Source: Aspidapion aeneum (lineage: Eukaryota > Arthropoda > Insecta > Coleoptera > Brentidae). Taken from it: a DNA stretch of 64,000 nucleotides. Below are positions 5,689 to 45,200 of this stretch, in pieces. Location: the NCBI GenBank assembly GCA_963576565.1, contig OY755046.1, positions 55,593,471 to 55,657,470 of the forward strand, read 5' to 3'. Numbering within the stretch: the first letter of the stretch is position 1; every line of letters begins with the position of its first letter. A program made the translations under genes and the position numbers. Under the pieces are notes generated by a model. That model had not been told where the DNA came from and ran no database searches. It saw nothing but the letters and a program-made list of their open reading frames with translations.

Positions 5689-6883
5689 ACCCAACAAACA
5701 ATTAAAGTTGTAACGACGAAACCCCAACTAGAAAGAATTTCTTAAAAGTAACCGCAACGTACTCCCGCTACGTCTCAGTATACCATACAGCGACGTTATA
5801 ATTCCCTAAGTGGGGAACCAATTTCTGGTTATAACTACTTGGCCAAGTGTTTAAAGTCACTGTAGTAACAACTACACTACTACGTCGTAGCCAGGTATCT
5901 ACTACGTCGTAGAGGCTGTTTTTTTTTCCGTAATGGCATAAAAGTTGCGATGTAGTTGCAAATAATATAATCGTTTCTTTTTGGTAGAATTGTTACACAA
6001 TATGGTGGACACAACAGTAAACAGACCCGCTTAGTTTTTTTGTTTGGTTATGGTTATAATATGAACTATGTTATCCAAAAGTGTGAGAATTTACGAGCAG
6101 AGGATCAAAATTCGAGTGCGACGCAAAGTTTTTTGTATAACATGCATTATATATATTGCAAAAAACCGGTGCGCCCGTAAAATTGAGCCGTTTTCTGGTA
6201 GCTGATGGAATTTTTGTGTTGTGATTTTGGAGGTTATGTTTTCATAATCGACAGTTAACTCCAACAAATGGTGCTTAAGAAGAGCATTTTTGGTAAGCTT
6301 CAACTAATTTGTTTATAAAATAGTGTGGCTCTTTAATATGAGCTCATAAAACGAAAACAAAAATATTAAATTTTCTTTCTTACATAAAAACATGGCGTCC
6401 CAAACTATATTCCCTGATAGTCGAAAAGGTTACTTGAAAGTAGTTGCGGCTTTAAAGTTGATCCAAAAAGTTATTTTGTCTACATTGTTACATCAGATGT
6501 TACTATGATGACACAAACTTTTGTGGTAAAAATTAAAGTTATAATGTGGTTGTCGGATACACTTGTTTGGGACTCCAATGAAGCTTAACTTTCTAGTGGT
6601 AATTAAGTAGGATATAAAAGTCAGGGCGACTACGAAATAACGACTAAAAAGAAAGTAAAACTTTAGCAACGTCCTATTGTGGTAGAGAAGACTATCAGAA
6701 TCGACTATCAAGAAACAATCCTATGAAGTAGTTTAGAGGGTCGTTTTTACGAAACATCTACTATTTCCTGATACTAAATAGTTGTTAGAACTAAAAAGTA
6801 ACAAATTTTGGTTGGGATCACCACATTTCTACTATAAGAAAGTAGCAAAGCCTTTAGAACATGTAGCCGCTACTATAAATGTT
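5689..6883. mobile_element. Inserted ~1.2-kb non-autonomous element with short TIRs
   Basis: It interrupts the 140-bp array between CTTCCAGA and GATATGCTAGAG. The ends are CCCAACAAACA and TGTTAGTTGGG, an 11-bp inverted repeat with one mismatch. A 2-bp duplication (GA) is possible. The interior contains two copies of the self-complementary CTACTACGTCGTAG (5877-5912) and no transposase. The superfamily is not recognised. Confidence 0.5.
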
Positions 6884-15340: not shown

Positions 15341-15468
15341 AAATATAATAATTATTCAAACAAGTTTTCGCGGCTAATCGAGTAAAAAGAAGTTTTTGTT
15401 TCACTTATATTTTTCCGTGAGTAGCTCGAAAGCTTAACCTCACGGGGCCAAAGACCTAATAAACCCCT

Positions 15469-15516
15469 AATGTTGACAGTTAATTGTTTCGTCCTTATGG
15501 GACTCCTGAGAACACT
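15469..15516 (-). ncRNA. Hammerhead ribozyme motif, copy A (core substitution)
   Basis: On the minus strand: stem I AGTGTT pairs with AACATT (one G-U). The core reads CTCAGGA where CTGANGA is required, so the invariant G5 is a C. Stem II GTCC-CATAA-GGAC, then GAAA, then a short stem III around TTAA, and a GTC cleavage triplet. The G5 change should abolish or strongly reduce cleavage. Confidence 0.75.
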
Positions 15517-15952
15517 GCTTGGTCAATCTGACACCCTTGCGAAGTTCATAAGACGGTTTTGTCTCTAATCTAATGTCTATAGTGAGAAAACCCCTTGCAA
15601 AAAGCGCCATCTACCAAGATACGAGAGAAACTAGAACAAGAGCAGGCGAGTATAAACTCGATCGATTGTAAAGAAAAAAAAACCATCCGTGACCTACTCT
15701 TCTGTCTTTTAGGCCAGAGCAACGATGATTAGCGTTTTTACCCACCATCAGACGTGAGCGTCGGTCAATCAGCAGAATTTTTAAGCCAAATAATACTAAC
15801 AAACGTGAATTTTAGTACCAGTGAATTTAAAAATCAAAAAAGTTTTCGCGGCTAATCGGGTAAAAAGAAGTTTTTGTTTCTCTCATATTTTTCCGTGGGT
15901 AGCTCGAAAGCTTAACCTCACATCAAGTCCAAGATCTAACGGACACCTAATA

Positions 15953-16000
15953 ACTGTTGACAGTTAATTGTTTCGTACTTATGGGACTCCTCAGAACACT
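15953..16000 (-). ncRNA. Hammerhead ribozyme motif, copy B (intact core)
   Basis: On the minus strand: stem I AGTGTT/AACAGT (one mismatch), core CTGAGGA, stem II GTCC-CATAA-GTAC (one mismatch), GAAA, stem III CAATTAACTG (one mismatch), cleavage triplet GTC. All invariant catalytic positions are present. The stems are slightly weakened compared with copy C. Confidence 0.8.
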
Positions 16001-16638
16001 GCTTGGTCAATCTGACACCCTTGCGAAGTTAATTAGACGGTTTTGTCTCTAATCCGATGTCCATAGTGAGAAAACCTCTTGTAAAAAGCGCCATCTACCA
16101 AGATACGAGAGAAACTAGAACAAGAGCAGGCGAGTATAAACTCGATCGATGAAAAGATCGATTGCAAAGAAAAAAAAACCATCCGTGACCTACACTCGCT
16201 CTTCTGTCTTCCCTGCCAGAGCAACGCTGATTAGCGTCTTTACGTGTTTTTAACCACCATCAGATGTGAGCGTCAATCAGCGGAATTTTCAAGCCAAATA
16301 ATACTAACAAACGTGAATTTTATTACTAGTGAATCAAAAAAAAAAAAAGTTTTGTGCTAACTAGTTTTAGTACTAACGGTAGGATTAATATCTGCGGCCA
16401 ATACACAATAATAATAAAATTTAAAGAAAAATTATATATAAAATAGTGGTTTCTTCAACCAATAAAAGAAGAAAACATTTTTGCCTATAAAATGTGTATT
16501 TTTTTAAAGCTATTTTTTGCTTTGTTGGATCACTCAATATTAAACCGCCGGGTGTTTGCCTCAAATTTGAGTAGTAGGGGCTCTATGACGCCATAAATCA
16601 AAAATGGCGGCATTTTCAATTTTTTTACAAACAAAGAC

Positions 16639-18192: not shown

Positions 18193-18261
18193 TATAATGG
18201 GGAGAGTTTAGTGGTACAAGAGCAGGGAATAACTAAGAAAAATAAGATAAAAACAAGATTT

Positions 18262-18334
18262 TACCTTAGACTGGATTTTAACCAGTGACCTTCCGCTTCT
18301 AGGCTGATGCTCTACCAACTGAGCTAACGAGGTA
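18262..18334 (-). repeat. tRNA-like sequence (SINE head or tRNA pseudogene)
   Basis: On the minus strand TAGCTCAGTTGGTAGAGC matches a D-arm/A box. ACTGG-TTAAAAT-CCAGT forms a T arm with a weakened B box, and TACCT pairs with AGGTA at the ends. The anticodon stem does not close properly around CTAGAAG, so a functional tRNA is unlikely. A second copy lies in the opposite orientation at 19653-19725. Confidence 0.6.
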
Positions 18335-18399
18335 CTGATACAAAATTCGCCTATGTGTAAACCGTTTCTACTCAAATTTTTCTTTGTTAGTTAGGTGTA

Positions 18400-19347
18400 C
18401 GAGGTCTGGCCATTAAATAACAAGACTGCGCGGCCTAGATGGCGACCTAGACGGGTGGGGTAGAAAACGAATAGTGCGTTGGGTATCTAGATATCTTGTC
18501 TATGCACGTCCCAAAACACGTTTCCGTCACTATTATATTATTAGTGCAGTAGGGGTTTAAAACGAACGTGTATTTTTCTCGTGCCGAAAACCATGTGTGA
18601 CGAAAAACAGGAGCAACGTATCTATCTCAAATTTCTCGTTAAATTGAATAAAACTCCAACTGAGTGCTATAAATTTCTGCAAGAGGCCTATGGGAACAAT
18701 TCTCTATCTCGTGCGCGTGTTTTTGAGTGGTGTAAGCGCTTTAGTGAGGGCCGAGACACCACCAAAGATAACCAGCGCCCAGGTCGCCCTGTGACTGTTT
18801 CAACTCCAATGTTGAACGTTTTTTTCGACATTAACGGTATCGCGAAGACTGAATGGATTCCGGAGGATCAGACTGTCAACCAGACTTACTATCTGTCCGT
18901 TTTGGCAACACTGCGAGAACGAGTTCGTAAAAACGGCCCGAGTTGTGGAAGATCAACTCGTGGATTTTGCACCAGGACAACGCACCTGCCCATAACGCAC
19001 TATCTGTAAAGCAGTATTTGGCCAGTAAGTGCACTCCAGTGCTCGAACACCCGCCGTACTCACCAGATTTGGCACCGTGCGACTTTTTTTTGTTTCCGAA
19101 GATAAAATCTGCTTTGAAAGGGACCCGATTTGAGTTGATGGAAGCGGTAAAGCAAAAAACGGCAGAGCTCGTAAAGGCCCTCACCAAAGAAGACTTCCAG
19201 CACTGCTTCGATCAATAGAAAAAACGTATGGAAAGGTGTGTGGTGAGAGGAGAGGAGTATATTGAAGGGGAGCATTTGAATGTAGAATAATTTTTATAAT
19301 ACAACCCTTTTTTGTAACCAGTCTCGTTATTTAATAGCCAGACCTCG
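18400..19347 (+). mobile_element. Internally deleted mariner transposon
   Basis: TIRs are CGAGGTCTGGCCATTAAATA and its near-complement TATTTAATAGCCAGACCTCG, flanked by TA (18398-18399 and 19348-19349). The N-terminal transposase part (from 18581) shows the HTH region EQRIYLKFLVKLNKTPTECY, a second HTH ending FEWCKRFSEGRD, and the GRPV linker. The centre carrying the first catalytic Asp is deleted. In another frame (18943-19218) HQDNAPAHN and YSPDLAPCDFFLFP follow, with D34D spacing. At 948 bp it is shorter than a full ~1.3-kb mariner. Not functional. Confidence 0.9.
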
Positions 19348-19652
19348 TATGCTCTCAAGGTTCCGGTAGCTACGAGAACACGGGAGGTATTATATGGGGA
19401 GGGGAAAGGAATACACATTAACTAGTTGCATAAAACCCTATATATCCATCTACCAGTGGTGTACGATATATAGCGCTAAAGGTGTCAGACGTGGAATTTC
19501 CAACAAACAATAACAAGCCAGACTGAAAATCACAAAGGTTACTTTTAGCGCTTTAGATATAGATTATATACTGGGGAAAATTTAGTGTCATAAGAGATTC
19601 TTTAACCTTTGTTATGACGAAACGGGTTCCAAATCGGCGGATTATGTATCAG

Positions 19653-19725
19653 TACCTCGGTGGCTGAGTTGGTAGAGCAACAGTCTAGAAGCGGAAGGTC
19701 GCTGGTTCAAATCCAATCTGAGGTA
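19653..19725 (+). repeat. tRNA-like sequence (SINE head or tRNA pseudogene)
   Basis: GGCTGAGTTGGTAGAGC (A box region) and GGTTCAAATCC (B box, one change from consensus) sit in a 73-bp tRNA-like outline starting TACCTCGG and ending GAGGTA. The anticodon loop would be CTAGAAG, but its stem (ACAGT against CGGAA) does not pair. The flanks TGTATCAG (5') and AAAATCT...TTATCTTATTT (3') are shared with the inverted copy at 18262-18334, so the repeat unit is longer than the tRNA part. Confidence 0.6.
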
Positions 19726-20254
19726 AAATCTAGTTATCTTATTTATACCTTACCCTTATGCCACAAAATTATCCCCGTTATATAATAAAAATAAAACAAA
19801 CAATATTGGGTCACGAAATGAATCAATAACATACCACTCTTATTTAAAATTGGATAAATAATTTTTGAGTTATGTATTTTCTCTTCAATATGACACAACG
19901 CGTCCATATTTGATGAAAAAGTGCCAATATTTGACATTGACAATTCGCAAAACTGACATAAACCGTTTCTCAAGTCCAGGAAGAATTCTTGTTATCACAC
20001 GAACACATTTTTAGAGTTTTTTGGTACCTAATCCTTTGTACAAAACCTCCTATAATAAAAGGAACACCACTTTTTATATTAGGTGAAAGGGTATACCCAA
20101 TCCAAGTTATGTTTCAAGGCTAATTTGACAGATTTCATACTTGACAGCTAGGCACAAACGATAAACTTGTCAAATTAGGGTCAGACCAGTCAGTCAAGGC
20201 AATATTTCTGAAAATCAAACTTCTAGAAGTATTCTATATTACATTTGGACAGGT
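19726..20254. other. No gene seen
   Basis: AT-rich DNA without motif-bearing frames. A 76-codon open frame on the minus strand (19743-19973) has no recognisable domain. Confidence 0.35.
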
Positions 20255-22449: not shown

Positions 22450-22890
22450 AAGTAATAAGAAATGCTTCTGGACCGAAAACGGAGAGCAATTTTAAATGTT
22501 TTCCCTTGACTATCCAAGTATCCAACTATATTGGTTGAATAAAGTACACTTACAAAAAACAGTAAAATAAAAGTTTTTTTTAGTATTTGACCTTTTTGGC
22601 AACCGCTTACTATTTCCTCATCATTTTCCTTTTTCCGGTTTAGTAAGGGGCATTACGTCATTCGTGGGATTTTTGATGAAGAATTTATGACAACTGATTT
22701 GATCGATTACTAATGATCCAACCTGTTAACAGAAAATGCCTCAGTCAAAATGCAAGATTAGGTATAGGTATTTATGGGTCTGTTAAGACAAATTGGTGGT
22801 TCATAAAAAAGTCCACGAAGGCCCAATTTTGATGTCACAACCTTCTACTAATTTCACCAAGTGAATTATTTTTAAAACATACTTTAAAAA
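22450..22890. other. No gene seen
   Basis: Non-coding DNA between the TIR element and the hammerhead repeat. No recognised structure. Confidence 0.35.
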
Positions 22891-23047
22891 CGAACAAACG
22901 TGAAATTTAGTACCCGTGAATTTAAAAATCAAACAAGTTTCGTGGCTAATTGGGTAAAAAGGAGTTTTTGTTTCTCTCATATTTTTCCGTGGGTAGCTTA
23001 AAAGCTTAAAACCTCACGGGGGTCCAAGATCTAATGGACATCTAATG

Positions 23048-23095
23048 AGTGTTGACAGTTAACTGTTTCGTCCTTATGGGACTCCTCAGAACACT
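23048..23095 (-). ncRNA. Hammerhead ribozyme, copy C (canonical, intact)
   Basis: Read on the minus strand from 23095. Stem I 5' strand AGTGTT, conserved core CTGAGGA (CUGANGA), stem II GTCC closed by CATAA and paired with GGAC. Then GAAA, stem III CAG closed by TTAA and paired with CTG, cleavage triplet GTC (C at 23054), and stem I 3' strand AACACT, which pairs perfectly over 6 bp. Every invariant position (C3, G5, A6, G8, A9, G12, A13, A14, U16.1, C17) is present. It is type I (stem I open) with the very short stem III typical of animal retrotransposon-associated hammerheads, which often cleave better as dimers. Predicted cleavage lies between 23054 and 23053. Confidence 0.9.
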
Positions 23096-23411
23096 GCTTG
23101 GTCAATGTGAACCTCTTGCGAAGTTAATTAGACTGTTTTGTCTCTAATCCTATGTAAATAGTGAGATAACTCTAGCAAGAAGCGCCATCTATCGAGATAA
23201 GAGATAAACCAGAACAAAAGCAGGCGTAAATAAACTGCTATACATATCGATGAATGAAAAGATCGATTACAAATAAAAATAAACAAACTAATCCGTGACC
23301 TAAGACAGCTCTTCTGCCTTTCAGGCCAGATCAACGCTTATTGCGTTTTTAACCGCCATCAGACGCTCACGTGGTCTAATTAACTTCGCAAGAGTGTCAC
23401 ATTGAAAAAGC

Positions 23412-23457
23412 AGTGTTCTGAAGTCCTATAAGGACGAAACAGTTAACTGTCAACACT
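23412..23457 (+). ncRNA. Hammerhead ribozyme motif, copy D (2-nt core deletion)
   Basis: AGTGTT / AACACT stem I, stem II GTCC-TATAA-GGAC, GAAA, CAG-TTAA-CTG and GTC are all intact, but the core reads CTGAA where CTGAGGA is expected, losing two G residues including the catalytic G8. Predicted inactive. Confidence 0.8.
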
Positions 23458-23618
23458 TATTAGGTGTCAATTAGATCTTGGACCCCCGCGAGGTTAAGCT
23501 TTTAAGCTATCCCCGGAAAAATATGAGAGAAACAAAAACTCCGTTTTACCCGATTTTAACCGCCATCAGACGCTCAGGTGGTCTAATTAACTTCGCAAGA
23601 GTGTCACATTGAAAAAGC

Positions 23619-23664
23619 AGTGTTCTGAAGTCCTATAAGGACGAAACAGTTAACTGTCAACACT
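23619..23664 (+). ncRNA. Hammerhead ribozyme motif, copy E (2-nt core deletion)
   Basis: Identical in layout to copy D, including the same loss of two G residues from the core. The deletion therefore predates the local ~207-bp duplication. Predicted inactive. Confidence 0.8.
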
Positions 23665-23865
23665 TATTAGGTGTCAATTAGATCTTGGACCCCCGCGAGG
23701 TTAAGCTTTTAAGCTATCCCCGGAAAAATATGAGAGAAACATAAACTCCTTTTTACCCGATTAGCCACGAAACTTGTTTGATTTTTAAAAACGAAGTTTG
23801 CTTTACGACATTTTGTAAAAATCACCACATAATAACACTAAAATATTTAGCGTATATACTTACTT

Positions 23866-30200: not shown

Positions 30201-33200
30201 TTGGTCTAATAAAACCCAGTTATAAACACTACATGCCCCAAAAATTATTTTTTTAACACATATTTCTTCTAATTAACGCGTAAATTGATAATAGTAATTT
30301 CGCGAGTAATTCTATGGAAGAATTCTTCTACTCCGTAAACTGTACTCAAAATATTTTTTCCGCACTAGTGCGGAAAAGTAAATTTGTTACGATTTTGAGG
30401 TGTTCTATAACATTTAGACCGTTCAAAATACATTTGTATCTTTCCTAGCACATGAAATATCCTAAAAATATTCAAATTGACTAAAATTCTGCTATATTTT
30501 CAATATTTTCGACAAAATAAAGTTTTCAGTAAAATAGGTTCAAATTATAAGTTTTAAACCTCCCCGGTATAAATATCGTCATTGTCAATGTCAAACAACA
30601 ATGAACACTAGTGGTTTTAGATTTGGCATCTTAAATCACCATAGCAACAAAGTACAAACAAACTGTCAAAACAAAGCCAATTTTGCAGATACAAGCGTCT
30701 TTTGAATTTTTCAAACAAAAAAATCAGATTTTCAATGGATTCTTCGGACGAAGATCTACCCCAGTCAGTTCTAGAAGCCGCTAGAATGTGAATAATAATA
30801 ATTGATTTGATTAAAACGGTTTGAATATAAATAATTTTCTGATTAATTTTTAGTTTTTTCCTCACGCTTATAGAAAAAATAGTGTACCTAACTCGTGCGT
30901 AAAGTGTCTTTTCCGCACTTGATTGCTGGCCAAACTCCGCTATCGCGTCGTTTGGCCATCTGCAATCGCGTGCGGAAAAGAGGCACTTTCCGCACTAGTT
31001 AGGTAAACTACTATTCCATAACGATTATGTCATCAAGGTATCAAAAGTCGCAGAAGCAATGCATAAACCAAGTGGTTTAACTTTAAATTGATAAAAGCCT
31101 TTTTCCCTGTTGTAAAGCCAGTCCTTTCGTTATCTTCACATGAAATGTCAATGTCAATAGCAGAGGATTATGTCATCAACAAAAACTAAACAAGTCTTTC
31201 AGCGTGCACCTCTATTAAAAGACGCAAAAGCATTGCGTAAACCAAATGGTATAACTTTAAATCGATAAAAGCGATTTTCCCAGTTGTCAAGCCAGTCCTT
31301 ATGATATATTGCAATGTCAATGTCAGGAGCATAGGTTATAATATGTCATTCCTGGTAATGTCTTCTATAGTCTTCTATAGTCATTACAGATTTTCCAGCT
31401 ATGCATGAACAAATGTCGCAGGAGCATAGCATAAACCACAAGGTATAACTTTAAATTAATAAAAGCCTTTTCCCCAGTTGTAAGGCCAGTCCTTTCATTA
31501 TGCTCATATGAAATGTCAATGTCAATAGCAGAGAATTATGTCATCAAGAAAAACTAAATTAAACATGTATTTCAGCGTGCACCTGTAATTAAAAAAAAGT
31601 CGCAGAAGCATTGCATAATTTTCCCAGTTGTCAAGACAGTCCTTTCCTTATGATCCTATGCAATGTCAATGTCAGGAACATAGGTTATGTCATTCTTGGT
31701 AATGTCATTTAGTATTATATATTCATTCCAGATTATTCAGCTAAGTACGAACAAAAGTCGCGGGAGCATAGCATAAACCCCAAGGTATAACTTTAAGTTG
31801 ATAAAGTCATTCACTCAGTTGTGAAGCTAGCCTTTATCTTATGCTCTTTTGAAATGTCGATGTGAGTAGTCGTGAGCAGCAAGTTATATGTCTTTCTTGG
31901 TAATGTCATTCAATGATTTCAGATTTTCTAGCTAAAAAAGAACAAAAGTCGCAGGAGCACACAAGAAATAACAGAAGTCGCAGGACCATAGAATAAACCA
32001 GGTGGTATAACTTTAATTGACAAAAGACTCTTCCTCCAGTTGTGAATCCAGTCCTTTTCATTATGCTCTTATGAAATGTCGATGTCAGTAGCAGAAGATA
32101 TATGTATTTCTTGCAAAGAAATTCTTGATTTCTTGGTAATATCATTCAGTTTCTAGTCATTCCAGATGAGAAAAAACAAAATTCGCAGAAGCATAGCATA
32201 AACCACAAGGTACAACTTTAAATTGATAAAAGCAATTCCCCTAGTTGTGAAGCTAATATTTTCTATATGCATTTATGAAATGGCGATATCAGTAGAAGAG
32301 GGTATATGTCTTTCTTGAAAATGTCATTCAGATTTTTACAGTCATTACACATTTTCCAGCTAAGAAAAAAGTCGTAGGAGCGTGCATAAACGACATGATA
32401 TAACTTTAAATTGACAAAAATAATTAAGTCCTCCAGTTGTGGAGCCAGTGGTTTTCCTTATGCTCTTATGAAATATCGAGATCAGTAGCAGAGCAGCAGC
32501 AGTTTTCTAGTCATTCCAGATAGGAAAGAACAAAGTTCGCGGAAGCATAAACCACAAGGTATAACTTTAAATTGATAACAGCAATTCCCTCAGTTGTGAA
32601 ACTGGTCATTTTTATATTCTCTTATGAAATGGCGATATCAGTAGTAGAGGGTATAATTATGCTCTTCTTAGAAATGTCATTCAAATTTTTACAGTCATTC
32701 CCGATTTTCCAGCTAGGAAAAAAAAAGTCGCAGGATAGCATAAACCACATGGTATAACTTTAAATTGACAGAAGTAACTAATTCCTCCAGTTACGGAGCC
32801 AGTAGGATTCCTTATGCTCTTATAAAATGACGATATCAGTAGCAGAGGGTATATATGTCATTCTTGGGAATGTTATTTAGTTTTCTATAGTCATTCGAGA
32901 TTTCCCAGCTAAGAAAATAAAATAAACAGCACAGCCTAAACCACATGGTATAACTTTAAAGTAATTAAAATCTATTCTCTCAATTGTGAAGCTAGTCTTT
33001 TCCTCATGGTCTTATTAACTATCGATGTCAGTAGCAGCCGGTATATGTCTCTCTTGACAATGATATTCAGTTTTCTAGTTATTTCATATTTTCCAGCTAA
33101 GACACAAAAAACTTACCGACTGAGGAACAGTTGTCGAATTGATCCCCACATCTTTAACCAATTTAGCAGCTAAATCAGTTTTTTGATCGTCGTTCAATAA

Positions 33201-36200
33201 ATACAAATAAATTCTAAGATCCGAAACGCAGCACGGTTTATAACCGAATTTTCTATAGAATTCGATAAACAATTCTGTTATGTCGCCCAGAATTTCGTCT
33301 GGGTTTTGACCCTTTTCTTGAAGTTTTGAGCAAAGTTCGAATCGGGCTAAATATGGGCCTCTTAAAAGAAAACCTACAAGTACAAAAAGCACAGATATAC
33401 TTTCGGTAAACATTATTAAACTTAAACAAAAAATATTCCAACAGAATTAAACACCGCATCAAAGACAATAATAAAAAGTGCTTTTATACCATCTGGTGGT
33501 AAAATGATTAACTATTACTCACTATTACTACAGCCCCCTTCAATAATTGCGCTAATAAATTCATGGCACTTTTCTGGAGTATTATCTGGCGACTCCATCT
33601 CGCATTTTTCTCCGTTTTCCTCAATTTTCAGGTAATCTTCGATCGAATTCACCTCGTTTTGAACCTCGAAAGCGGAGTGTATGTAATCTTTCCATATGTC
33701 CCACTTGTCAAAACTAAAAACGACAAAATATGGAAACTACAGCTTTTTCCCTCATATAGTCCTTGCAATACCCCAAGTCCCTTTGCTATCCTTTTTTATT
33801 TTTCTTCTATAAAGAAGACAGAAAATAGCATCGAAAATCGTTGCTGGCCCCAGATTGCAGTTGGCAGTTGCAAGCCTGTCTGTCTATCATAGTTTAAATT
33901 GACAATAAAAGTCAACTTTCAAAACAAAAAATTTTTGGCAAGTAGTCAAAATAGTAAAAAAAATTGCGACAAAGATAAAATGTTCATACGAAAATTCCAC
34001 GCTTTTTTCGATCTTTAGTCCCATCCGTAATAACTACAGAGGAAAATTTTAAGAAACACAGTGACACTTTGTGATGCCATTCAAAACAACTTCTTTAGAA
34101 AACTAATTAAAAAAGTTTGTTAAACTATTGTTTAAAAAGATAAAAGCATTGTTAAAATTACATGATGCATTGCGAAAAACAAATTTTGGAAGACTGAGAA
34201 AATGAAACAGCTATTGCTCCTCTCGTCATAACTGACGATGGCAGTTTATGAGATGAAGTTTTTTGGACCATGAGAATAAATTATTTTTGCATAGTTTGTT
34301 TTTTAGTTAGACTTTAGATTTTCAGTTTTTTGGTTGGTTTTTAATCCTATGAGCTGTTCTACTGTTCTACTGCAACATTTTAAACTTAGTAATTAGCAAT
34401 AGCCTCAATATAGCTATTTTTAGTTTAAATATTGTGTCTGAAATATATTTTTTAATTCACTCAGAAAGATTCTGTACAATACTGTTTTTGTTGAAATTCC
34501 CAAAGCATTTCCACCTAAATCAGTTGAGAACTTTATTATACTTTTTAAAAGATCTATGTGTCGACCATAAAAAATGTTTATTTATTAAAAATTATAATAA
34601 AATACTGTTTTAATTTACCCTAAACAAAAAATATAAATGCTTATATACTGAGAAATGAGTATGTACTAATTTAACTTTTATTAAGTCTTTATCCTTAGGT
34701 AATAATATTAAAAACTTCTGTTTACAAAAACTATAATATAAATAGGGCCTAATCTTATTTGAATGAATTTTTTCCAAAACAAATTGCAAAGCTTAGCTTA
34801 ACTCCAGCTCGAAATACATTGTAAAGAATAACATTTTTGAAAAAATTAAATAATCTTTAATTTGTCGTTTGTTCATGGTTTGTAGCTCTACGGTCAGTCG
34901 CACTGAAAATCTTCCAATGTAGAAACTTTGGCGGAAGGGCATCCCAATTGTTCATAAATTTTTCACTACATAAAATCATTTTGGGACAGAACCTTTTCTC
35001 AAAAAACTATTCCAAATCAGAATCAGAATTTAAATAAAAAATTAGCGATAATCTTTCAAAGTCAGAAATTTTAAAACAATGGCAGTTTAAACACCGATCC
35101 ACCACCCTTATTATAAAGGGTGGTAATCGATTATATTAAGATTAAGGTAGCTGATAATTAGTTTCGCAGCATACATTATCAGTTACCTTAGGAACCTGTG
35201 GTTTAAAACTGAATTAAGAATACACGTGTGTTTTGTTAACAGAATTACGGGGTGATTAAACAAAAGGACTAGCCTTATTGCAAAGACTATACTCCTCTTT
35301 ACCCTTAATAGTGGATAAACTACTTAGACTACCAAAGTTTGATAATGTACTTATTTATGACGTGTATGTGTGTGTGTGTGTTTGTGTGACCGATTTCTGT
35401 TTCAAAAAGTATTTTTTTATTTACATAAAGTTTGTCAGGTCACAAGAAGATCTGATTAGTTTTGCAGAAAAATTCGAACATTACTTCCCGCATTTCTTAC
35501 ATGTGAGCAAGAAATCGATAATAAAGTTCCAACACGGCGGTTTTCACCATTTCTAACCTTGTGGTAACAAAAATATCAAACCCACATTAACCCACATTAA
35601 ATTATGTATTCTTTAATTTGTAGACCAAAATTTTCTACTCAAGAATTTTTCCCGAATATGCTAAAAAATACTCATGAAACTATTCAAAATCCTAAAAATC
35701 GCTGTTTATACAGAACCTAATGTTAATTAGAAATCCATTCATGACATTTCTTTTAATAAATATGACCTTTGTTCCTTTTTAAACAGGGCAAGCCAAAATA
35801 CGCGCTCGCAAACATTTATTTACTATTTTACATAAAAAATGTTTGCTATAATTCCTACAGAGAAGACAAAAACATATTTTTTAAAGAAAACTGCTGGGTT
35901 CTTTTAAAGAAATCGAAAAACCCAACATAAAATGTTTTTTATGAGAATTACTGACTGAATTGTGTGGAAGGAGCGACGTAAGGAAGAGATCCTGGTACCA
36001 TCTATTCAAAAATATGTCAGGCATTTAACTTTAGGTTTAAAATAATATAAAGATAGAATCTATGTCAATGTCAGTTATCACAAAGCAAAGCTGGTTTGAT
36101 GTTAAGAAATATTTGTCTGGTTCCGTAACTAAACGCAATCATCGTAAAGAAAAGTTTTATAGGAGGTGAGACCTGAGATTGATTTTCTATTTTTTGGATA

Positions 36201-39200: not shown

Positions 39201-42200
39201 TCATCAACCAATTTTTGCATCATTCTTTCAGCTAAGCTTAACAAAAGAGTCTTTTTCTTTTCATCTTTGGCACCTAAAATGCAAAATAGTCAGCCAATTC
39301 AATTATTTTAACTTCGCAAGGGTGTCACATTGACCAAGCAGTGTTTTGAGGAGTCCCATAAGGACAAAACAATTAACTGTCAACACTTATTAGGTGTCCT
39401 TTACATCTTGGATCCCCGTGAGGATAAGCTACGAGCTACCCACGGAAAAATACGAGCGAAACAAAAACTTCTTTCTACTTGATTAGCAACAAAAACTTGA
39501 TTGGTTTTTAAATTCATGGGTATTAAAATTTAGGTTTGTTTTAAAAAAAATATATTATAGTTTAACTAGAGAATGGACAAACAATATCTCCATGCAATGA
39601 ATATGTATACTTGGGTGTCACATTTGATAAGACAGGAACAGACTGTAAAGAACTAGAAAAAAGAATAGTAAAAGAAAAAAAGGTAATTGGTTGTCTTAAC
39701 AGTATTTTATGGAGCAGAGAGATAAAAAAGAATGTAAAATTTAACATATATGAAACAATGGTGAAAAGCACGCTGCTGTATGGAATAGAGACTTGTCGCG
39801 TAACAGAAAAATACAAAGCAAAAAATGGAAAGTGTCGAAATGGATGCAATAAGAAGATCAATGAGAATATCTAGAACAGATCATATAAGGAATAAGATCA
39901 TAAAAGAAAGAATGGGAAGCGAGGGAAGCATCTCTGATGACATCACTAAACACTAAAAGACAACTGATATGGTACGGCCATGTACAGCGTGTCCCATTTT
40001 CGATGGGATTAAATGGGAAACTCGGTTATTATTAAAGATATCGATTTTCTGATGGCACCTTACCGTGCTCTTTTTTGGAGCCCTTAAAAATGGTATAATC
40101 AGATTTTTGCTATACCCCGTGGTTTCGCTAATACAGGGAGTTTTTGAAAAAATTGCATTTTAATTAATTCCTTGTATCTCGCTTATTTTGCAAGATATTT
40201 TTATTCTGTAAAAACCTTTCTGTGGCAACTTTTTTAGAGCAAAATAATGACGTTGTCAATTTTTTTAAATATTGTTTAGTTTTTGAGATATGGTATTTAT
40301 CATAAAAAAAATAAATACGGACCTGGATTTTTTTTATTACTACTTTGATTGGTTCCATGCTATTATTACCTTAAAATGATAAAACTTTAATATTTTTTTG
40401 ATTTAAGGTTAAAAAAAAACTATTTAATATTTGAAAAAAAAATTATAGTCCGAACCTGGAAATTTCCAACGTAATTATAAATTAAAAATTGCAAGACACA
40501 CTAGTTGAACGATTTTCAGTTTATCTGTTTTGAAATAATAATTAAAAGATTTATAAATAAAGTAAAAAACGTTAAAAAGTTACTAAAATAATATACTAAT
40601 TATTTGATGGTAGCACAGCAGGTCGTGAAATTTACAAAACAAAAGCGTGGAATTGACATTGTCATTTTACTTGTCATTTTTGTGAATGGCTTACAATCAT
40701 TTTAAACTGGCCAGAAATCGACCGTATCCAGATTTTGAAAATGTGATATGTTTGACTGCTTCATTCAAGCAACAAAATCCCAATATTTAAATGGCAGAAA
40801 TATTTTTATGCAAAATGCGTTAAGAAAAATTGCTCAAAAATGTCAACAATGTCTTACACATAATGGTAATCAGAAAAATTAGTTATTTTTTATAATTTGT
40901 TTTTTTTTTGTATTTTACATAGACTTTGTTTCAAATAAATCTGTAAATTAACGTAAAACCATTTTAATATGCTAAGTATCAAAACAGTTAAACTAAAAAT
41001 TGTTTATCTAGCAATTTTTAATTTATATTTATGTTGGAAATATCCAGGTTCGGACTAATTTTTTTTTAAATATTAAATATTTCTTTTTTACCTTAAAATA
41101 AAAATTTTTATTATTTTATGATAATACTAGCATGGAACCAATCAAAATAGTAATAAAAAAAATCCAGGTCCGTATTTAATTTTTTTATGATAAATACCAT
41201 ATCTCAAAAACTAAACAATATTTTATAAATTTGACAACGTCATTATTTTATTCTAAAAAAGTTGCCATGAAAAGGTTTTTACAGAATAAAAATATCTGGC
41301 AAAATGAGCGAGATACAAGGGATTATTAAAAATACAATTTTTTCAAAAACTCCCTGTATTAGCGAAACTACGGGGTATAGCAAAAATCTGATTACGCCAT
41401 TTTTAAGGGCTCAAAAAAAGAGCACGGTAAGGTGCAATCAGAAAATCAATTTAATCATCAATTTAATCCCATCGAAAATGGGACACGCTGTACAACGGAT
41501 GAACGATGAAAGAATACCAAAGCAGGTCCTAGAATGGAACCACTAGGGCACAGAAAAAGAGGGCGTCCTAAATTGGAATGGCAACAGTCAATCCAAAGAT
41601 CAATGACTCAAAAAAACCTGACGGAAAATGATTGTCAGGATCGAAGGAGGTGGAGAATAGGCGTCGGACAACGTAGAAAAACGTTCTAAACCGACATAGT
41701 AGTAGTATTATAGTTTAAAACCATTACCTACCCTCTTCCCTAGTGGCCTGTAAAATAATGCTCATAACATTCCAGCAATAGTACGGATTCTTAGGTTTTT
41801 GTTTATACAGCGCCATCGCGCTTAGTTGCTGCCTTTTAAAATCCCCCACTCTAACGTAACTCATAAACAAGTGAGTGTGCAATTCCTCATTAAGGGGGTC
41901 AATTTTGACGGCTGATTCGTAAAGTTTACAAATTTTATCCACTAAAACAATAAAAAAAATTAAAATATTAAGAGGAAGAGACATGAAGAGCACAGGGAAA
42001 AAACATGCAAAGTCATTTTTTCTAAAAGAGTGGGTTATGTATGCCAAATGATGTCTTAAGATGTGTATTATTATCTGGAATATTTAAACTGGGAAAAAAC
42101 AGGCTGTGTCACAAGATATTACTATTAATTCATTTGGCCAACAAGTAAAGAACGTGCCAGTTTTAAACTTTCAAAGTGTTATATCTCCAAACTAACTAAG

Positions 42201-45200
42201 AGTGACTTTGCACGTTTTTTCCCTGTGCTCTTCATATACAAACGCCAAGTTGTTATATAGACGTGGTAAAACCTGTCATTTTTAAACTTCAAAAACTATT
42301 TTTTTTTAAATAAGAAAAATTCTATACTTGTATTTATATGATTCTATATTTAGTATGAGATATTTAAAAAAAATAAAGATGCGACAAACTTATCAAAATT
42401 AAATTTATTTAATTTAAACTCAAAGGAGAGAAATATCGGTTTTCTATACTCTAGCATTGTTTAGACAGAGCCGCATCTTCCGTCCTTGTAAATTCATAAG
42501 CGTTGGAGAAAAATAAACAATTTTTGACAAAATATGTAGCGAGGGTGACGGACAAACGTGCTTGTTTATATGTTGCATATTGTTGTCACTGTCGCTGACA
42601 ACTTAAATTATTTTAGTGAAATGCGAAGAAACTTGGCAAGAAAATAACGTTTGCCGTCTCTCTATTTCTTTAAGATATGTCTTATATATAGGGTCCCTAC
42701 CTATAGGTATAATAAATTATAAAGCCATAGAATGTCATGTTTTATTTATTTTTGTAAAATGAAACATATCATCCTAGATCTTTAGCATTTGCATGTCAAA
42801 TCTTACATTGCTGCATTTCTCTATTGCACAACGTCATAGCCTGCAGGGTTGCCTTATCTACACAATTGAACTATCAAATTGCTCAACACCCACTGATCAA
42901 AAAAATTTTAGATTTGGTATTTCTCATCCTCTTTCATACACTCTAATAAATTAGGGACTCAAGGATAACATTATTTCCTTCATTTTTATAAAATAAAATA
43001 TTGGATATAACATGTGCCAAATCTTTTAGGTATATTTGATATGAAATGACCTTTCGGCTGTAAAATTGTTTGAAGGTCCATAGATCAAACCAGTAGTCAA
43101 TATCTAGATTTGGTGTTTGTTATCCTGTTTTATAATTTAGTAAAATAAAATATGCCATGTATGTATGTATGTACTGGAAAGTGGTGGCAGGCCCTCCTGG
43201 ACCTTTATGCACTGCGACCACATATGGATCTATTGTGCGCACATACCTACATACTGAGTTTGACTAAAGTGGCATATTATTTTTTCCACCCAGCACATAA
43301 AAAAAATAAATGATTTAGTCTTACTTACGACTTACTTAATATGTCATACTTTAGTCTCTATATTAAATCTCTGATTTTGGATCTTTAAAGAATAAAACCA
43401 TTATAAATATTGTGTGTCCAAACTTACACTGTTGCATTTCTCTATAACACAACGTCATAGCCTGCAGGGTTGCCTCATCTGCAGGTTTTTCAGATGTCAA
43501 ATTTTCTAACATTTGTCCGGATTCCGAGTCTCGCCCCATTCTTAGCAGAGTTAGGGCTTTTAAAGCTTTTCCACAATGAAGGTTTGGAGTTTTCTTGAGC
43601 ACCTTTTCACATTCCTGGAGAGCTTTTTTGTTGTTGCCTGTGTCTAACCAGTCTAATGAAAGAAATATATAGGGTGTTATTGAATAAGCTGCTAATATTG
43701 AAGCAAGTAATTTGAGGGCCCATTTTGAGAAAAAAAAACCTTATAAGAACATATGTATATGTCCTCAACGTCATAATTTATGAGATACAGGGTATTAAAA
43801 CATGTTTTTTTTATTTTGACCAGTGTCGTTCGTGCGGGAATTGCTTGAACAATTATTGTAAACAATATTTCATTTGTTAATAAACAAAATAATGAAAACT
43901 GCACTATAAACAGCGATTCAATTAATGCGCAACATAAAAGTACCAAAAACAGTTTTTTGCCTCTAGAGCCCAAACAGCTCATTTGCGGACATATGTTTAC
44001 TGGACAAAAAATGTTTTTTTGATGGCATCTACCACCCCTTACAGTTTGTCGGTATACTTTTGGGAGATCCTGTATTGCTTTTAATAAATTGAAAGCAATA
44101 CAGGGTGTTAATAAAGTATGTCGCCAAACTTAAGAGGATATTTTATTTTTAAATATACAGGGTTCATAAAAGGTCTGTACAAAATCTTAGCACATATTCC
44201 TGAGATCAAAATAAGTCGATTTAATGCAAATTACCTTAGGTGGTGAAAAAATTTCATAAGCGAAATTGCCGAAAAGCAACAAACTTGAATAAAGCTTTGA
44301 GAACAATAGTCAGTAGAAAACTAGCCGTTGCTATGACATTTTGCCAGTGTAAAACACTAGTGAAATAGTCATTCAAAATAATTTCAGTATTCCGTTGCGG
44401 CATCGAACACTAAAAACGGAAATATTCGAAAATTACTTACTTTAGCGCATGTAGCAAATGTACCTTTTTGGCTTAAAAAGATTCAGGAAAATATTTTCTT
44501 AACAAATAAAGTTAAAAGTTACACTGAGAAAAAAGTTATAGTCATTTTAAACTATAAAAAGAGCATTGTGAAGCGCCCTCTAACGGCCACAGTGAAAAGG
44601 TAACCATATTTACACTTCGCATCCCAAAAAACCTCTGAGTACCAATTTTTAAAGTAATGCATTGAGAAATGTTCATAAATTTAAGGACAATCGATTTTTA
44701 ATTTACCACCCTGTATCTCTGAAACGGAGCAATTTCGGACTAAGGAAAGTTGCTTTAAATCGACTTATTTTGACCTCAGGAATATGTGCTAAGAAATGTT
44801 AAAGTTTTAATTTTTTATTTGTTTTTTCTTTATAATTCGTGCAGTTTTTGAGATATTTGGTTCAAATCTGGAAAGTGTATTTAGCTACAAGGCATACCTT
44901 ATTAACCATGCCAAATATTATCAACATACTACAGGGTGATATTTTTTCCAGGGTCATGCCACCTTTTTCCCCCAGAACTTTTTTGCAGTAAGTCACTGGC
45001 AGGTTCTAAAGTTTAAAATGAATTCCTTGTTTTATTCAGAAACTTTTTGATTTGATGTAATTTTTTGTATCTCTAACCGTGTTTGCAAAAAACGGCAAAA
45101 AAAGATAATTTGTATATTTAATTCTTATTCAGAAATTACAGAAAACCCACATAAAATTAAAATAATGTAATGTAGTGACTATTAATATCATTTATCAGGG

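Follow-up and report, generated by a model that had tools for sequence, protein, structure and literature searches.

Animal retrozymes are described as low-GC tandem repeats that carry type I hammerhead ribozymes, and Penelope-like elements have been proposed as their movers (PMC7229834, PMC7761336). For their mobility the discoverers put forward Penelope-like elements as a strong candidate, as a proposal and not a demonstration (PMC7229834). For Nematostella repeats a LINE-like 15-bp duplication has been reported (PMC4918200). Penelope elements themselves leave a distinctive record. In the rotifer Adineta vaga they are typically completed by an inverted pLTR, most often head-to-head, with an optional 31-bp tail on one of the inverted pLTRs and with duplications of 8-10 bp in the examples given, some copies having none (PMC3846280). 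The purified Penelope protein of Anolis cleaves and extends both strands, favours targets rich in A and T, and initiates internally on the RNA. The interval between its two reverse transcription start sites matches the 30-40 bp tail; in vitro the two strands showed no difference in where synthesis began, and the hammerhead was dispensable for insertion (PMC11167929). Our literature search, which covered open-licence papers, retrieved none joining retrozymes to head-to-head insertion. Here we describe a hammerhead repeat from a 64,000-nucleotide stretch of the Aspidapion aeneum genome (hereafter the window) and its relatives elsewhere in the same assembly.

The minus strand from 23095 to 23048 reads AGTGTT (stem I), CTGAGGA (core), GTCC-CATAA-GGAC (stem II) and GAA, followed by stem III, C17 and the returning stem I strand AACACT. 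All core residues are present and the three stems are paired with stem I open, as in type I hammerheads; cleavage is predicted between 23054 and 23053. The letters, coordinates, predicted cleavage position, invariant core and paired stems given in a previous sequence-only reading can all be read from the DNA. Its layout of stem I, stem II and core also stands, while its stem III of three pairs does not: by standard hammerhead numbering there are four, ACAG-TTAA-CTGT. The 12 nt spanning stem III with its TTAA loop, ACAGTTAACTGT, form a palindrome. The covariance check suggested at the time returned a match, the Rfam model RF00163 (Hammerhead_1) aligning full-length to 23048-23095 on the minus strand with no broken pairs at 25.3 bits, below its curated cut-off of 34 bits, which is a detection threshold (E 0.08 counting 4227 families; 0.0012 for a search of 921 bases). 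We further applied a strict descriptor consisting of CTGANGA, a stem II of at least three pairs and GAA, then a stem III of at least two pairs starting A-T, H17 and five stem I pairs. The focal site is its sole match within the window. In simulated DNA with the dinucleotide frequencies of the window the descriptor matched once in 100 Mb over both strands, or 0.00064 times per 64 kb, in line with the low chance probability asserted earlier. Sequence, model and descriptor together confirm, as far as sequence goes, an intact type I hammerhead motif at 23048-23095.

By eye, no clear pattern of an outer stem I or of loop 1-loop 2 emerges from the focal sequence and the window alignment. The hammerhead is not the minimum-energy fold predicted for the monomer and accounts for about 10% of its ensemble. 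The predicted dimer fold of the 48-mer is exactly a double hammerhead (-30.8 versus 2 x -9.8 kcal/mol). This is not proof of such a structure, because 34 of 300 base shuffles gain equally on dimerising and the five-copy majority of the window folds otherwise.

The hammerhead region belongs to a dispersed repeat with six copies in the window (blastn). The five related copies noticed previously were recovered at 15.5 and 16.0 kb (minus strand), 23.4 and 23.6 kb (plus strand) and 39.3 kb. All five are damaged, leaving the focal copy as the only intact one of six; one has a core substitution and has lost part of stem I, another combines a mismatch in stem II with an altered stem I, two (a local duplicate pair) lack 2 nt of the core, and the last bears two core substitutions. 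On short stretches RF00163 still recognises two of them, 15953-16000 with 19 bits (E 0.16) and 39340-39387 with 14.3 bits (E 2). Since the majority of five copies, with the local duplicate left out, retains every core residue, the common ancestor of the window copies most likely had a full hammerhead, the copies having decayed separately. Units in the window measure 479-507 bp, with part copies of 207-239 bp also present. The GC content of the six copies is 0.37-0.42, below the 45-50% used to recognise retrozymes, and their predicted folding gives no signal of a stable circular RNA (z between -1.7 and 0.3).

The focal copy makes up one half of an insertion with two head-to-head arms, a structure absent from the previous reading. 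This insertion occupies 22883-23795, 12-bp duplication included, and appears as a composite repeat at 22887-23789. Its minus arm (22895-23365) is a near-complete unit of ~470 bp with the focal hammerhead, and has its 3' end at what we call below the long, or "tail", site (unit 46). In the plus arm (23366-23783) the half of the unit that bears the hammerhead is present twice in tandem, 207 bp each time, and the arm terminates 3' at the short site (unit 14). These tandem copies are 98% alike, both with the core broken by the 2-nt deletion, and probably arose by a later local duplication; the exact head-to-head junction lies within about 23344-23373. Both ends of the insertion share the word TTTAAAAACGAA, at 22883-22894 and 23784-23795, a target-site duplication that is absent elsewhere in the window; among random pairs of 60-nt stretches, 7 of 4934 share 12 or more. 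The remaining window copies are a head-to-tail dimer of the ~500-bp unit with two damaged hammerheads (15356-16353, minus) and a 5'-truncated single copy with a damaged hammerhead (39308-39540, plus), whose 3' end falls near the long site (unit 48). For both, the longest word shared by the ends is 7, and no clear target-site duplication was found.

Other features of the window include a 5'-truncated RTE-like LINE copy at 39566-41705, with a perfect 13-bp duplication, TATTATAGTTTAA. The LINE copy is interrupted by ~1.6 kb containing 86% inverted repeats, and the named sources among the 120 relatives listed for its protein are Coccinella, Bemisia and Sitophilus. We considered and rejected a chimeric origin of this LINE and the adjoining hammerhead copy at 39.3 kb, since the duplication that belongs to the LINE (39553, 41706) sets them apart. 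Inverted repeats at 18252-18368 and 19619-19735 (117 nt, 86%), each with a tRNA-like sequence (42.1 and 37.4 bits with Rfam), enclose a transposase of mariner type that is broken (HTH_48 plus Transposase_1, 18545-19009); together they form a mariner-like element whose ends are tRNA-like. An exon-like open reading frame on the minus strand, 33084-33446, matches MDM20, a Pfam family of NatB complex subunits, with E 2e-17; its gene may also include the weak TPR match found at 43363-43740.

In the 1.286-Gb assembly, RF00163 gave at least 53 matches with E up to 1, a lower bound because 74 of 155,298 first-look candidates were scored. One of 14 control genomes gave a match, below the cut-off. The hammerhead falls within the present repeat at 26 of 30 examined loci, the others being L001, L002, L004 and L026. 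One of the 53 matches found passes 34 bits, that of L001 at 40.6 bits, and it is located in another repeat. This second hammerhead repeat comprises L001 (1501-1547) and L004 (1501-1547), which agree in 72% of ~188 aligned columns, and L024 contains another match; the hammerhead matches of L002 and L026 are also outside the present repeat. To map copies, one real 514-bp unit was doubled and aligned to the window, to loci L021-L030 (3 kb each) and to loci L031-L050, which are 10-kb stretches at the positions of L001-L020; at L026, L032 and L034 this mapping found no repeat copy. Loci were picked by hammerhead score, which biases the ribozyme counts and apparently leaves orientation and ends unaffected.

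The prediction that the repeat family encodes the hammerhead motif holds well. A looser descriptor, which tolerates one unpaired position in the five of stem I, accepts 58 of 73 copies; stem I is fully paired in 53 of these. Without the copies selected by the Rfam search the figure is 37 of 49, and within the window it is 1 of 6. A frequent change in stem III, CAG to CGG, turns an A-U pair into G-U and retains the pairing. In the sampled loci the hammerhead ranks 40th in conservation among 467 segments of equal length (79 copies, Rfam-chosen ones left out), which places it within the best-preserved tenth of the unit and lends selection modest support. In the 64-kb window it has 13 changes in 240 positions versus 8/150 in the 5' flank and 62/498 in the 3' flank (five copies, duplicate left out), and is thus no better preserved than its own 5' flank. 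Selection for cleavage is plausible only, because the 3' neighbourhood of the motif is also well preserved.

A periodicity of ~514 bp marks arrays at L028, L029, L030, L048 and L050. These are arrays of type I hammerhead units without LTRs, and many further copies are single or head-to-head. The array at L048 (2748-10000) holds ~14 units and extends past the sampled stretch; near-identical units recur in it 3, 4 and 7 units apart, which suggests later growth. Unit identity is 98.0-99.2% within five loci and 97.2% between loci, and as a test of rolling-circle copying this homogeneity is ambiguous.

The orientation of the copies is informative about how they were inserted. When unit matches less than 90 bp apart were merged, 35 blocks resulted, 16 of which are head-to-head, the minus arm lying to the left of the plus arm and the 5' ends facing each other. 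At L028 the two blocks probably represent a single insertion split by other DNA. Both ends are in view in 14 of the 16 (L028 and L048 run off), and in 11 of these the ends carry identical words of 11-13 bp, exactly 12 bp in nine. When left and right ends from different insertions were paired as a control, none of 182 pairs reached 11 bp, the longest shared word being 10 bp, found once. No duplication was found in the other three, L027, L036 and L045; in L036 and L045 one arm ends inside the unit. Among the dated insertions, arm length goes from about 110 bp up to several units; the head-to-head insertion at L050 spans 3.6 kb, and that at L048 extends beyond the sampled stretch. Of the 19 one-armed blocks, in a single orientation, 15 were tested for duplications, and only L038 (10 bp shared) might have one. 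An 11-bp word shared at L040 was discarded as a candidate, as it consists of element sequence. At three of four older loci, either arm resembles its partner more than it does any arm of the remaining three, in keeping with the reading proposed below. Among seven young loci the arms of L050 beat 24 of 24 comparisons, those of L030 fall below 24 of 24 and the others lie between, so that arm identity at young loci does not settle whether one event or two produced them.

In the 11 insertions with duplications, and after trimming at the duplications, one outer end lies at unit 9-17 in 10 cases (the short site) and the other at unit 37-51 in all 11 (the long site), with one end of each kind per insertion throughout. 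The remaining end, in L049, aligns only to unit -7 (placed by eye; local deletion). The arms differ by 28-42 nt in 10 of 11 insertions and by 52 in L049. Bases left unaligned beyond the alignment number 8 in L033 and 2 and 6 in L044. L027 has no duplication and shows the same pair of ends, at unit 12 and 49, bringing the rule of one end per site to 12 of 12, for which the chance is about 1 in 4096 if the two sides chose freely and equally. In the one-armed blocks (n=18, the L028 run-off block left out) seven ends lie at unit 10-19, five at unit 35-55 and two elsewhere, and four at the seam of the doubled reference are uninformative. The visible outer left end of L048, at unit 103, matches neither site.

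The hammerhead cut is predicted after unit 402, which places the two putative start sites 121-129 and 149-163 nt downstream of it. As read from the unit mapping, the 11 insertions have 22 arms, of which 20 cross the cut site and none starts within 20 nt of it. The template was therefore uncut there, or cut and re-joined, and either a circle or an uncut linear multimer would fit. No insertion directly records cleavage, because the 5' ends of the arms do not cluster at the cut site.

In this context, we consider it probable that the motif is the type I hammerhead of a non-autonomous, protein-less, retrozyme-like element with a unit of ~514 bp, inserted by Penelope-type machinery. Array or monomer loci would be transcribed, and the hammerhead, judging from the motif and its published relatives, would trim or circularise the RNA. 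A Penelope-like protein would then cut both target strands with the stagger of ~12 bp that the duplications display. On each side cDNA would start from one of two sites ~30-40 nt apart, one site per side as seen in the copy ends, some 125 and 155 nt downstream of the cut site. The two arms would extend 5'-ward over a fraction of a unit to several units and then be joined head to head, as their structure and joint indicate, the focal hammerhead being on the minus arm of such an insertion. The link to retrozymes and Penelope-like elements touched on in the previous reading finds support in the head-to-head structure and its duplications. Extending this to animal hammerhead retrozymes in general is a step we take with slightly more doubt than conviction: they may be trans-mobilised by a two-sided Penelope-type reaction, in which strands staggered by 12 bp prime at two fixed sites ~30-40 nt apart, one per side, on circular or multimeric ribozyme RNA, the head-to-head arms possibly circling the template more than once. 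Through its readable insertion record, the family would connect the Penelope reaction observed in vitro with a hammerhead repeat that has no reverse transcriptase ORF, and the rule of one end per start site with a ~12-bp stagger is testable in any retrozyme-bearing genome and with purified Penelope protein.

Candidates for a partner were sought in the genome. At L040, ~1 kb from a hammerhead unit, 6080-6649 (plus) is a fragment related to GIY-YIG endonucleases, with three relatives found, the best being P0121 (63% identity, the GIY-YIG name given by its source) and with no Pfam match. The adjoining upstream stretch, 5840-6073 (minus), resembles Penelope reverse transcriptase by eye, and Pfam gave no support; perhaps 5840-6649 is itself a head-to-head Penelope copy. 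Inspection by eye of the 40 longest stop-to-stop open reading frames from 20 ten-kb stretches, with Pfam run on four pieces, found no complete Penelope element. The proposed partner would thus be deduced from one fragment without a Pfam match, which counts against our reading.

The unit could alternatively be the pseudo-LTR of an autonomous Penelope-like element, the copies being solo or ORF-deleted rather than independent retrozymes. The insertion marks are indeed those of Penelope, hammerheads occur in Penelope pLTR regions (PMC11167929) and the L040 fragment places a GIY-YIG relative in this genome. Nevertheless, we do not class the family as an autonomous Penelope, because a gaplessly repeated unit of ~514 bp cannot hold a reverse transcriptase and GIY-YIG ORF, and the L040 fragment alone looked Penelope-like among the 40 reading frames. 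The Penelope hammerheads described in PMC7761336 lack helix III or loop contacts, unlike the four-pair stem III found here. We therefore hold this alternative to be unlikely. Insertion by a LINE, for example the RTE-like element of the window, through target-primed reverse transcription and twin priming is more doubtful still. With twin priming, duplication lengths vary and the second start may lie anywhere; 11 insertions with a near-constant duplication length of 12 bp and the same two start sites are not expected of it, and a blastn comparison of the units with the window revealed no similarity to its LINE copies. Yet the duplication of the window LINE is of similar length, those of the Nematostella retrozyme repeats were likened to LINE ones (PMC4918200) and twin priming is described as yielding inverted copies with duplications (PMC2837659). 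An ordinary satellite spread by DNA recombination, with the hammerhead as passenger, has a precedent in pDo500 of cave crickets, a similar unit of ~500 bp containing a hammerhead (PMC2837043), and arrays are present here as well; dispersed, truncated and head-to-head copies with target-site duplications nonetheless indicate insertion and not array growth alone, making this very improbable. The outer arms of the focal locus are inverted repeats and might evoke a DNA transposon or a foldback element bounded by such repeats. This is hardly credible: in 10 of 11 insertions the outer ends are offset by 28-42 bp rather than co-terminal, the centre is variable, and head-to-tail dimers and one-armed copies exist.

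Returning to the retrozyme-like reading, the comparison with described systems is instructive. Exact-pattern scans of viral and prokaryote contigs and distant blastn against plasmid and phage records gave no match, as expected of an animal repeat. The pDo500 repeat of Dolichopoda shares with ours its insect host, ~500-bp unit, hammerhead and possible double-hammerhead fold, a likeness at the level of description; it is presented as a satellite, with no insertion structure reported in the consulted part of the source (PMC2837043). Metazoan non-LTR retrozymes have in common with the present repeat the type I hammerhead, a dispersed distribution, the lack of LTRs and low-GC tandem repeats ranging from dimers to long arrays, and those of amphibians also a short helix III with a palindromic loop. 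In contrast, the units quoted for them measure 150-450 bp, a range exceeded by ours (479-514 bp, ~514 bp in arrays), which also counts against our reading; furthermore, the present copies often stand head-to-head between ~12-bp duplications, one arm bearing a tail, unlike the retrozymes as presented in the consulted part of that work (PMC7229834). These are features of Penelope-like elements with GIY-YIG, which likewise show head-to-head inverted repeats (here 16 of 35 blocks), short duplications and tandem copies (PMC11167929, PMC3846280), as well as a 30-40 bp tail on one arm and a hammerhead upstream of the reverse transcription start sites (PMC11167929). Our unit differs from them in having no reverse transcriptase-endonuclease ORF and a fuller hammerhead, and its duplications are mostly of 12 bp as opposed to 8-10 bp in the rotifer examples (PMC3846280). 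Nor does the Anolis enzyme, for which no difference in start site between strands was reported in vitro (PMC11167929), predict that all 11 insertions use one start site on each side. Overall, the Aspidapion repeat appears to combine the content of a retrozyme with the insertion mode of a Penelope element.
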